The notes under the pieces: model-generated
Databases searched by the model: none
What the model was told of the DNA's origin: nothing
Seen by the model: the letters and a program-made list of their open reading frames with translations, nothing else
Source of the DNA: Methylobacterium radiodurans
GTDB lineage: Bacteria; Pseudomonadota; Alphaproteobacteria; Rhizobiales; Beijerinckiaceae
Direction of reading: 5' to 3'
DNA length: 64,000 nucleotides
Assembly (NCBI RefSeq): GCF_003173735.1
Contig: NZ_CP029551.1
Location: forward strand, 2,256,001-2,320,000
Made by a program: the position numbers and the translations under genes
In this document: positions 38,807-44,775 of the stretch, piece after piece
How the letters are laid out: each line of letters starts with the position of its first letter
Position numbering within the stretch: the first letter of the stretch is position 1

Positions 38807-39295
38807 TCAGCCTTCCTTGAAGCCGTACTCGGGCACGCCCTCCTCGTTGCCGTAGTACTTGTACGGCAGGAACTTGCCCGAGAGGTTCATCTTGACCCGG
38901 TCGCCCTTGTTGTTGGGCTCGCGCTCCATGGTCATGTTGAAGTCGATCGCCGACATGATGCCGTCGCCGAACTCTTCCTGGATCAGCTCCTTCCAGGTCG
39001 TGCCGTAGACCATGACCAGCTCGTAGAAGCGGTAGATCAGCGGGTCGGTCGGCGGCATCTGGGGAATCGAGCCGCGGTAGGGCGCCTCGTTGAGCATCCG
39101 CTCCTCGGCCTGGGAGAGGCCGAACAGCTCGGCCGCCTTCTTGGCCTGGGCCTTGGGCAGCTTCATCTGGCCCATGCAGGCGGCGGTGATCAGGATCGGC
39201 GAGATCCCGCCGATCTCGTCCTGGATGTACTTCCAGGTCCAGCCCTTCTCCCGCTTGATGTCGAGCAGCTTCTCGGTGAGGTCTTCGCGCTTCAT
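38807..39295 (-). CDS. cynS: Cyanate hydratase (cyanase) CynS
   Basis: Converts cyanate and bicarbonate to ammonia and CO2 (via carbamate), detoxifying cyanate and yielding nitrogen. 162 residues from ATG 39295, with GGAGAG 5 nt upstream. The cyanase catalytic triad is present with family spacing: Arg89 and Glu92 (IYRFYELVMVYG) and Ser115 (DGIMSAIDFNM), equivalent to R96/E99/S122 in E. coli. The N-terminal helix-turn-helix-like domain and C-terminal VKMNLSGKFLPYKYYG are complete. It is the last gene of the cynA-B-D-S operon, after a 183-bp gap. Confidence 0.98.
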   Translation of the reverse strand: MKREDLTEKLLDIKREKGWTWKYIQDEIGGISPILITAACMGQMKLPKAQAKKAAELFGLSQAEERMLNEAPYRGSIPQMPPTDPLIYRFYELVMVYGTTWKELIQEEFGDGIMSAIDFNMTMEREPNNKGDRVKMNLSGKFLPYKYYGNEEGVPEYGFKEG

Positions 39296-39478
39296 CGGTT
39301 CTCTCCGGATGGGGCCTGCCCCGGCGGGGCGGCGCGTGTCGGGGTTCGGCATCGGACGGCGACGGGCGGCTCGTGTCGCACCCCCCGCCGTCCCACCCCT
39401 CGCGGGGCGCGGTCCCGGACACCGGCCGTCGAGGGGCGGCGCGGTGTAGTGCCCGGAGACCGGAACGGTGCGGCCGGC

Positions 39479-40468
39479 TCAGGCCCGGCGGGCGGGCGGC
39501 TCGGCCGCGATCGCGGCGGCGTCGGCCTCGCTGAGCGCGGGGCGGACGACCGGCGGGTGGCGGGGGTCGTAGTCCGCGGGCATCGTGTCCCGCAGGGTCT
39601 TCGATCGCGTCACGAGGAAGTCGATCAGGTGGTTGCGCAACGCGTAGTAGCCCGGGGCGTGGTGGAGCTGCGTGCGGTCGCGGTCCTTCGGTAGCGGGTT
39701 CTCGACGATCTCGGCGACCTTAGCCTCCGGCCCGTTCGTCATCAGAACGATCCGGTCGGCGAGGTAGATCGCCTCGTCCACGTCGTGGGTGATCATGAAC
39801 ACGGTCTGGCCTGTCTCGACGCAGATCCGGCGCACCTCGTCTTGGAGCGTGCCGCGAGTCAGCGCGTCGAGCGCAGAGAAGGGCTCGTCCATCAGCAGGA
39901 TCTTGGGCTCGATCGACAGCGCGCGGGCGATGCCGACGCGCTGCTTCATGCCGCCCGACAGCTCGGATGGCCGCTTGTGCTCGGAGCCCGCGAGCCCAAC
40001 CGTCGCGATAGCGCGCTTGGCCCGCGCCTCGATCTCGGCCCGCGGCGCCTTCCGCCAGCGCGACGAGACCGCGTAGGCGACGTTGCCCAGCACGCTACGC
40101 CAGGGCAGCAGGGCGTGGCCCTGGAAGATCACGGCGCGGTCGAGGCTGGTGCCCGCGATGGCCTGCCCGTCGACGATCACCGCGCCGTCGGAGGGCGCCT
40201 CCAACCCCGCCAGGATGTTCAGCACCGTGGTCTTGCCGCAGCCCGAATGGCCGATCATGCAGACGAACTCGCCGCGCCGCATGGGCAGCCAGAGGTCCTC
40301 GAAGATCGTGGTGGTCTTCCCACCCTTCTTGCCCCCGGGCGCCGGGTAGCGCCGGGCGATCCCCTCGATCGAGATGAATTTTTCGGAATTCGACATGCGG
40401 CCGGTCCCGGCATTGGGGTCGGGAGCGGCGCCGGACGCGCGCCGCACGAACGGAAGAAGCGTGCTCAT
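39479..40468 (-). CDS. cynD: Cyanate/nitrate-type ABC transporter ATP-binding protein (CynD/NrtD-like)
   Basis: 329 residues from ATG 40468 (GAGG 6 nt upstream), 8 bp after the permease stop. Walker A GHSGCGKTT, signature LSGGMKQRVG, Walker B ILLMDEPFSALDALT, switch His in MITHDVDEA. The sequence is of the NrtC/NrtD/CmpD kind, with the short C-terminal extension YYALRNHLIDFLVTRSKTLR typical of that subfamily. It energises cyanate import by the neighbouring subunits; nitrate or bicarbonate remain possible, but the linked cynS favours cyanate. Confidence 0.92.
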   Translation of the reverse strand: MSTLLPFVRRASGAAPDPNAGTGRMSNSEKFISIEGIARRYPAPGGKKGGKTTTIFEDLWLPMRRGEFVCMIGHSGCGKTTVLNILAGLEAPSDGAVIVDGQAIAGTSLDRAVIFQGHALLPWRSVLGNVAYAVSSRWRKAPRAEIEARAKRAIATVGLAGSEHKRPSELSGGMKQRVGIARALSIEPKILLMDEPFSALDALTRGTLQDEVRRICVETGQTVFMITHDVDEAIYLADRIVLMTNGPEAKVAEIVENPLPKDRDRTQLHHAPGYYALRNHLIDFLVTRSKTLRDTMPADYDPRHPPVVRPALSEADAAAIAAEPPARRA

Positions 40469-40476
40469 CCGATGCC

Positions 40477-42826: not shown

Positions 42827-42833
42827 TTCGACG

Positions 42834-42845
42834 ACGAGATCTCGT
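42834..42845. promoter_or_regulatory. Perfect palindrome overlapping the regulator start
   Basis: ACGAGATCTCGT, a 12-bp perfect palindrome. The sequence ATCTCGTG also occurs at 42801-42808 inside the neighbouring inverted repeat. It ends at the GTG/ATG start of the activator gene, which suggests an autoregulatory operator. Confidence 0.5.
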
Positions 42846-42846
42846 G

Positions 42847-44775
42847 ATGCCTGACGTGTCCTTCGGCAATCCGCCGGATCCCGGCTTCGGGCCCGTCTTC
42901 GAGGCGGGTGTCGAGGCCATGCTGGTGCTCGATCCGGATGCCGACCGGATTTTCGATGCCAACGACGCTGCGGCGCGCCTGCTCGGCTACGAGCGGTCCG
43001 CGTTGCGCGGCATGGCGGCGAGCGCCCTGCATCCGGGACAGCTTCCGGCGCTGATCGTGTTCACGCAGGGCGTCCTGGCCAAGGGGCGCTGGTGGACCCG
43101 CGCGCTGACGCCGCGCCATGGGGCCGGCCGCGCACTCAGCATCGAGGCCGCCGGCACTGTCCTGCCGGACGGGCTCGTCCTCGTCACCCTGTTCGACCTT
43201 GAGGAGCGTCGCCAGCGCCAGGTCGATTCCGAGGCCGACCGGCACATGCGCGCCGGCCTCTCCGAGTGGCAGCGCATGGAGCGGATCTTTCGCGACATCG
43301 AGCGGGAGAACCAGCTGATCCTGCGCGCGGCGGGCGAGGGCATCTACGGTGTCAACGCCGAGGGGGTGACGACCTTCGTCAATCCGGCCGCCGAGCGGAT
43401 GCTGGGCTGGTCGGCGGCCGATCTCGTCGGGCGGGACATGCACAGCGCCGTGCACCACACCCACCCGGACGGGTGCCACTATCCCCACCAGGACTGCCCG
43501 ATCTACGCCGCCTTCCGCGACGGGGCGGTGCATCAGGTCGACGACGAGGTGTTCTGGCGCCGCGACGGCACCTCCTTTCCGGTCGAGTACACCTCGACGC
43601 CGATCCGCGACCGCGGCGCGCTCGTCGGCGCCGTCATCGTGTTCCGCGACGTCAGCCAGCGTCGCGAGGCGGACGAGCGTCTGCGGCAGGCGCTGGCCGA
43701 GGTTGTCTCCCTGCGCGAGCGGCTGGAACTCGAGAACGCCTACCTGAAGGAAGAGATCCGGGCCGGCAGCCACCACCAGGGCATCATCGGGAAGAGCCCG
43801 GCCATTGAGGCGATCCGGCGCCAGATCGACCTCGTGGCGGGCACCGACGCCACGGTGCTGGTCACCGGCGAATCCGGCACCGGCAAGGAGCTGATCGCCC
43901 GCGCGATCCACGAGGCGAGCCGCCGCCGCGAGCGCCCGCTGATCCGGGTCAATTGCGCCGCCGTGCCGCGCGAGCTGTTCGAGAGCGAGTTCTTCGGCCA
44001 TGCCCGCGGCGCCTTTACGGGCGCGCTGCGCGACCGGGTCGGGCGCTTCGAGCTCGCCGACGGCGGCACGCTGTTCCTCGACGAGGTCGGCGAGATCCCC
44101 CTCGACCTGCAGGGCAAGCTCCTGCGGGTGCTGCAGGAGCGCTCCTTTGAGCGTGTCGGCGAGGAGCGCACCCGCGCGGTCGACATTCGCCTCGTGGCGG
44201 CGACGAACCGCGATCTGAAGGAGGAGGTGCGCCGCGGGCGCTTCCGCGGGGACCTCTACTTCCGCCTCAACGTCTTCCCCATCGGCGCGACACCGTTGCG
44301 CGAGCGTCCGGAGGACATCCCGCTGATCGCCCAGCACATGCTCACCGGGGCTGCGCAGCGTCTCGGCGTGCCGGAGCCCCGTCTGACGGAGGGCGATGTG
44401 CGCCGCCTCATCCGTTACGACTGGCCCGGCAACGTGCGCGAGTTGGAGAACGTCGTCGAGCGCGGCGTCATCCTGGCCCAGCGCGGCCGCCTGCGCCTTG
44501 ACCTGCCGGATGCGGAGGAACCCGCTCCCGTCGCGCTCGTCCGGCATGGCGGGGTGACCGCGGCGCCCGAACACCGCCCCCGGAGCGAGACGGAGCGGCG
44601 CGCCCGCGACCGGGCCGAGATCGCCGAGGCGCTCGCCCTGTGCGGCGGCAAGGTCTTCGGCCCGGGCGGCGCCGCCGAACTGCTCGGCCTGCCGCCCACG
44701 ACGCTGGCCTCCCGCATGAAGTCCTACGGCATCCGGAGGGCGTCGAGCGCGCTCCGAGGCTCCGCCACGGAGTGA
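42847..44775 (+). CDS. Sigma-54-dependent transcriptional activator with two PAS domains
   Basis: 642 residues from ATG 42847 (an adjacent GTG at 42844 is possible). PAS1 about 15-120, PAS2 about 152-272, a coiled coil about 275-305, an AAA+ domain about 312-545, then a Fis-like HTH (GGAAELLGLPPTTLASRMKS). Walker A is GESGTGKE (341-348), the sigma-54 contact loop GAFTGA is at 388-393, and Walker B is TLFLDE near 408-413. PAS2 carries a Cys/His-rich insert HTHPDGCHYPHQDCP (204-218) that could bind metal or sense redox. There is no receiver domain, so it is not an NtrC-type response regulator. It is divergent from cynABDS, whose sigma-54 promoter it probably activates. Confidence 0.93.
   Translation: MPDVSFGNPPDPGFGPVFEAGVEAMLVLDPDADRIFDANDAAARLLGYERSALRGMAASALHPGQLPALIVFTQGVLAKGRWWTRALTPRHGAGRALSIEAAGTVLPDGLVLVTLFDLEERRQRQVDSEADRHMRAGLSEWQRMERIFRDIERENQLILRAAGEGIYGVNAEGVTTFVNPAAERMLGWSAADLVGRDMHSAVHHTHPDGCHYPHQDCPIYAAFRDGAVHQVDDEVFWRRDGTSFPVEYTSTPIRDRGALVGAVIVFRDVSQRREADERLRQALAEVVSLRERLELENAYLKEEIRAGSHHQGIIGKSPAIEAIRRQIDLVAGTDATVLVTGESGTGKELIARAIHEASRRRERPLIRVNCAAVPRELFESEFFGHARGAFTGALRDRVGRFELADGGTLFLDEVGEIPLDLQGKLLRVLQERSFERVGEERTRAVDIRLVAATNRDLKEEVRRGRFRGDLYFRLNVFPIGATPLRERPEDIPLIAQHMLTGAAQRLGVPEPRLTEGDVRRLIRYDWPGNVRELENVVERGVILAQRGRLRLDLPDAEEPAPVALVRHGGVTAAPEHRPRSETERRARDRAEIAEALALCGGKVFGPGGAAELLGLPPTTLASRMKSYGIRRASSALRGSATE

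Follow-up and report, generated by a model that had tools for sequence, protein, structure and literature searches.

A predicted CynF-type cyanate-assimilation switch with a sigma-54 promoter and three conserved palindromes in Methylobacterium radiodurans

Described regulators and the Methylobacterium locus

The closest described counterpart of the system considered here is CynF of Pseudomonas pseudoalcaligenes (oleovorans) CECT5344. According to the available part of PMC6627978, its gene is divergent from cynABDS, which forms a single structural operon with a predicted sigma-54 promoter before cynA, and CynF itself is called sigma-54-dependent. The same part of that source reports that a cynF mutant has no cyanase activity and that CynF is essential for cyanase, that cyanase rises from 176 units without nitrogen to 2677 units with cyanate, that it is undetected with ammonium even when cyanate is present, and that the genes are similarly distributed in alpha-, beta- and gammaproteobacteria. 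In this study, a 64,000-nucleotide stretch of the Methylobacterium radiodurans genome (contig NZ_CP029551.1, positions 2,256,001 to 2,320,000; the whole stretch is hereafter called the window) was analyzed, in which a cynA-B-D-S gene cluster on the minus strand is divergent from the gene of a CynF-type activator.

In Escherichia coli, the cyn genes are under the LysR-type CynR, which is also a local cyanase regulator, although its family and promoter class differ from those of the CynF type. The CECT5344 cynFABDS region and the Methylobacterium locus have in common a divergent Fis-type sigma-54 regulator, a predicted sigma-54 promoter and the cynABDS gene order, while the cynF-cynA gap is 268 bp in CECT5344 (PMC6627978, available part) and 158 bp here (42689-42846). 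The initial annotation described such control of a cyanase operon as unusual wiring, which is not right, because the CynF-cynABDS system of CECT5344 has been published (PMC6627978, available part). In the available main text of that paper, the words operator, inverted repeat, enhancer, PAS domain and those beginning with palindrom- do not occur, and the ACGA-N4-TCGT operator described below was not found in print in a limited literature search that included the available parts of PMC6627978 and PMC11049912. The latter describes, in the part available, NitA, a divergent Fis-type sigma-54 regulator of the nit1C cyanide-assimilation cluster. NitA controls a nitrilase cluster and not cyn genes, and the likeness is one of gene layout rather than of alignment with the CECT5344 NitA sequence.

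The activator gene (42847..44775, plus strand; start codon ATG 42847, with GTG 42844 also possible) encodes 642-643 amino acids arranged as PAS-PAS-AAA+(GAFTGA)-Fis helix-turn-helix (HTH). The protein matches Pfam Sigma54_activat (240.6 bits) and PAS families, carries a C-terminal Fis-type HTH and has its GAFTGA motif at residue 388. Residues 17-310, modelled with AlphaFold2 (mean predicted local distance difference test score 82.5, with a weak linker), form two PAS-type folds with a long helix between them. The annotation of a divergent activator with GAFTGA and two PAS domains is thus borne out, as is its statement that the protein lacks a receiver domain, none being present among the Pfam matches. 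The NCBIfam cut-offs were not reached for the NtrC equivalog (314.8 of 558.6 bits), NorR (357.7 of 476 bits) or FhlA (362.8 of 830 bits). The AAA+ and HTH portion is 50% identical to E. coli FhlA over 353 residues; FhlA and NorR have a GAF input, whereas the input of this activator is PAS-PAS. A consensus for FhlA sites was also sought, as a half-site comparison, in the hyc-hyp region of E. coli K-12; the hycA-hypA intergenic region contained no match even when 2 mismatches were allowed, and this comparison was dropped.

The promoter, the putative operators and their conservation

The sigma-54 -24/-12 element TGGCACACGCCTTGC (42736-42722, minus strand, predicted +1 at 42710) is the sole exact match to TGGCACN5TTGC within the window. 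With one mismatch allowed, 3 matches were found versus a shuffled mean of 2.67, and since this count is close to chance, evidential weight lies only in the exact match and its conservation. The genome carries one copy of rpoN. The sigma-54 motif that the initial annotation had placed before cynA therefore stands as an exact element, whereas the 22 nt given with it are the length of the leader and not the distance from motif to transcript start.

This leader depends on the start of cynA (41321..42688, minus strand), which encodes a CmpA/NrtA-type binding protein matching Pfam NMT1_2. Its 478-amino-acid open reading frame (ORF) opens at ATG 42757, upstream of the gene's own sigma-54 element, which would then lie inside the coding sequence; Met24, ATG 42688, should therefore be the true start. 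From this codon there is a 22-nt leader after the predicted +1, with GAGG just 5' of the ATG. The match to cynA relatives starts near Met24 in many loci and further upstream in others.

Between the promoter and the activator gene lie three putative operators, 12-bp palindromes (ACGA-N4-TCGT) with spacings of 17 and 21 bp, to which no strand is assigned. These are operator 1, ACGAAATCTCGT (42796..42807, centre -91.5), operator 2, ACGAATTTTCGT (42813..42824, centre -108.5), and operator 3, ACGAGATCTCGT (42834..42845, centre -129.5), the last of which abuts the activator start codon. They are the only exact ACGARWTYTCGT matches in the window; with 2 mismatches allowed there are 22, no more than chance (mean 17.7). 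In the whole genome, one operator array matches at 0 mismatches, and a single other place matches with 2. The 8-bp-arm inverted repeat of the earlier annotation was a misparse and was rejected as a unit, as it pairs halves of two neighbouring palindromes. A scan of 36000-48000 against Rfam gave nothing at gathering scores.

The predicted operator array is strongly conserved next to such regulators in many Proteobacteria. The exact-pattern sigma-54 site was present in 32 of the first 34 orthologous loci, the other two (L015 and L016) having a TTGGCCC-type variant and being left unscored in the count of palindrome register. Three in-register palindromes (at most 1 mismatch) were found in 28 of these 32 loci and two in the remaining 4; when any site with at most 1 mismatch is counted, 29 loci have three, the difference being L049, whose third site is out of register. 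Across 14 loci of one register, the half-sites averaged 1.89 bits (partly by construction, as these loci were picked for having sites), versus 0.61 bits for the spacer, the mean pairwise identity of which was 42%.

A second comparison used the best 80 named loci among the matches listed, of which 79 were retained (L128 had too little upstream sequence); these belong to Methylobacterium, which provides the closest named relatives among those matches, Methylorubrum, Bradyrhizobium, Afipia, Tardiphaga, Chelatococcus, Ferrovibrio, Azorhizobium and others, and, being related to each other, are not independent trials. At least one exact palindrome was found in 75 loci, at least two in 63, and an exact TGGYAYN5TTGC in 75. 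Exact palindromes numbered 159 in 20,534 bp upstream of the regulator versus 2 in 1,063,688 bp elsewhere, and the sigma-54 pattern 75 versus 0, while two scrambled control patterns gave 16 (same composition) and 5 matches across all 1.08 Mb. Successive palindromes were spaced by 17 (59 times), 21 (18 times), 22 (4 times) or 38-39 bp (3 times). The palindrome nearest to the -12 element lay mostly 76, 74 or 75 bp from it (56 of the measured cases) and in a minority of cases 87-114 bp away; measured to the start of the cynF match, the distance differs between loci. Both cynA and cynS were present in 65 of the loci, cynS only in 8, cynA without cynS in the available sequence in 5 and neither in 1.

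Within the genus, 61 of 111 Methylobacterium genomes have a CynF orthologue and 109 have cynS. Among the 63 CynF copies, a divergent cynS lies within 1.2 kb of 25 and at 3.4-4.35 kb from 35, and the three with none within 7 kb are those of G244 (cynA, then the contig end), G210 (cynA-B-D, then the contig end) and contig C14 of G190, a second, partial CynF match. The paired operator (at most 1 mismatch, whole-genome search) was found in 54 of the 61 CynF genomes versus 1 of the 50 CynF-less ones (Fisher p = 1.3e-22, with kinship not corrected for), and the reversed pattern found a match in 2 of the 111 genomes. Directly upstream of CynF were 53 of 57 operator arrays, the exceptions being in G167, G201, G213 and G248.

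In a phylum sample of 398 genomes, 29 had a strong match to the activator, in 30 copies, of which 19 contain PAS1 and 11 do not. An exact palindrome lies upstream of 18 of the 19 PAS1-bearing homologues versus one of the 11 PAS1-less ones (L085). Synteny of the activator with the cyanase genes likewise held, as cynA or cynS adjoins 18 of the 19 PAS1-bearing homologues, the remaining one being that of G434. In a tree, the cyn-linked and nit1C-linked regulators group apart from most PAS1-less homologues, a split of moderate support (93/74), with the PAS1-less L081, on a long branch, inside the cyn/nit1C-linked group. In the available sequence, none of the PAS1-less relatives L081-L086 and L091 adjoins cynA, cynS or nitB/nitC.

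The operon, the predicted promoter and operators, their co-conservation and their pairing with the regulator are what sequence and comparison show. The conserved promoter, operators and gene pairing give strong support to the earlier proposal that the divergent PAS activator next to cynA exerts sigma-54 control.

Proposed mechanism and competing explanations

AAA+ activators of this kind bind palindromes as dimers, assemble into rings and contact sigma-54 through GAFTGA, and NorR has three enhancer sites and regulates its own gene, an arrangement that the three sites at about -91 to -129 resemble. We consider it probable (roughly 85%) that the locus is a CynF-type cyanate-assimilation switch, in which the activator at the three palindromes drives sigma-54 transcription of cynABDS on a cyanate-derived signal. 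Binding, oligomer formation, signal and autorepression are what we infer here: the dual-PAS activator would bind, probably as dimers, the three tandem palindromes about 91, 108 and 129 bp upstream of the cynA +1; the PAS region would receive the signal, upon which the activator would assemble into an AAA+ oligomer; and GAFTGA would remodel RNA polymerase-sigma-54 at the -24/-12 element, so that cynABDS is transcribed. The initial annotation had proposed a redox, metal or small-ligand signal; the precedent of CynF in CECT5344 points to cyanate as the probable inducer. Since operator 3 lies directly against the start codon of cynF, the bound activator probably represses its own gene as well. If so, a known, thinly studied regulator would gain a precise promoter architecture common to many soil and plant-associated bacteria, and the operator could serve as a sequence rule for finding CynF target genes.

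Several points weigh against this switch. The likeness to CynF of CECT5344 is one of layout and description, not of sequence alignment. The paired operator (at most 1 mismatch) is missing from 7 of the 61 CynF genomes, and the sole array of G201, one of the 54, is not near CynF. In the phylum sample, the PAS1-bearing L075 has no exact palindrome upstream and none with at most 1 mismatch in the 360 bp searched. A consensus search found no sigma-70-like promoter for cynF, so that the proposed autorepression is without a mapped target. Finally, a sigma-54-like site precedes 5 of 9 cynS genes sampled from CynF-less Methylobacterium (49 such genomes), none of the 9 having a CynF neighbour, and another activator such as NtrC may therefore also act on cynS.

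These sites, of the form TGGCACN5TTGC, would suit an explanation in which sigma-54 control is real but nitrogen status, through NtrC, is the main input of cynA, the local activator tuning expression or acting on its own gene. The same can be said of the abolition of CECT5344 cyanase by ammonium despite cyanate (PMC6627978, available part). However, CynF is essential for cyanase in that strain (same source and part) and the operator array tracks CynF (54/61 vs 1/50), both of which count against NtrC as the main input and make this explanation unlikely. Less probable still is that the palindromes are only sites for cynF autorepression and not cynA enhancers. The position of operator 3 against the cynF start codon would agree with it, but in the 14 one-register loci (chosen for register) the sites stay at a constant distance from the -24/-12 element despite the 42%-identical spacer, and in the named loci the distance to -12 is mostly 74-76 bp while that to the start of the cynF match varies.

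A broader version of the CynF switch, which we put forward only tentatively and regard as somewhat less likely than its contrary, is that the dual-PAS activator and the triple ACGA-N4-TCGT enhancer form a portable 'cyano-nitrogen' control cassette of Pseudomonadota, in which the PAS region would directly sense cyanate or a C-N anion related to it; a metal or haem site at the invariant His/Cys of PAS2 might serve this purpose. Promoter and operators would stay in place while the payload is swapped (cynABDS, cynS alone, a putative FNT transporter with cynS and, once, Nit1C). In the PAS2 segment, H183, H187, H188 and C201 do not vary among 24 sequences. PAS2 also occurs outside this system (plasmid matches in Deinococcus and cyanobacteria lie mainly over it, at about 44-57%), and since the same type of PAS occurs in unrelated proteins, a metal or haem site at these residues is only a guess. 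Searches of the PDB by sequence and by fold yielded PAS matches of a generic kind (haem FixL and DosP among the first, and also MmoS) with low whole-model template modelling scores, and no ligand claim was built on them.

Variant loci, operon genes and other sigma-54 sites

The homologue of G434 is, like NitA, a divergent regulator at a Nit1C nitrilase cluster, with three ACGA-N4-TCGT palindromes (spacings 22 and 18) before nitB. This sharing of the operator suggests that a single switch can serve both cyanate and cyanide assimilation. A general use of the CynF operator by nit1C was rejected, as 1 of 16 sampled clusters has both this regulator type and the operator. A homologue carried by a plasmid of Acinetobacter indicus also faces Nit1C, and the only sites there are degenerate ones; on a Loktanella salsilacus plasmid (L173), cynSDBA, cynF and nit1C genes are neighbours. 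In G299 and G555 (L176 and L177), the place of cynABD between cynF and cynS is taken by an FNT-like ORF, judged by eye to be a formate/nitrite-type channel; G635, from the same genus, carries cynABD there, and the operators are of the same kind. In L054, a match to cynA residues 21-65 persists between cynF and the nearby cynS, and the locus looks like one that has lost its ABC genes by deletion while retaining the promoter.

Domain and family matches confirmed the annotated cynA-B-D-S order on the minus strand. Cyanase is encoded by cynS (38807..39295, minus strand, 162 amino acids, start ATG 39295), which matches Pfam Cyanate_lyase and CYNS_N and scores above the equivalog cut-off of cynS/TIGR00673. 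An ABC ATPase (NtrCD-like) is encoded by cynD (39479..40396, minus strand), whose likely start, judged by eye from the translation, is Met67 of a 371-amino-acid ORF, and an ABC permease (NtrB-like) with Pfam and NCBIfam matches by cynB (40477..41316, minus strand); the nitrate-ABC cut-offs were reached by both cynB (TIGR01183) and cynD (TIGR01184).

Since CynF-less cynS genes and nit1C clusters also carry sites, sigma-54 control of cyano-nitrogen genes may be wider than CynF, with NtrC as a candidate. In the CynF-less cynS genes (L187, L189, L191, L192 and L193), TGGCACN5TTGC lies at -72 to -103 from the start codon, and a sigma-54-like site (looser pattern) was found in 15 of the 16 sampled nit1C clusters. 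In the M. radiodurans genome itself, about 106 kb before the window (G000:C1:2149732-2150211), there is a nitB gene of the nit1C cluster that is preceded, at 81 nt, by a sigma-54-like site and lacks the CynF operator. An ORF judged by eye to be GntR/MocR-like lies divergent from nitB in several related genomes.

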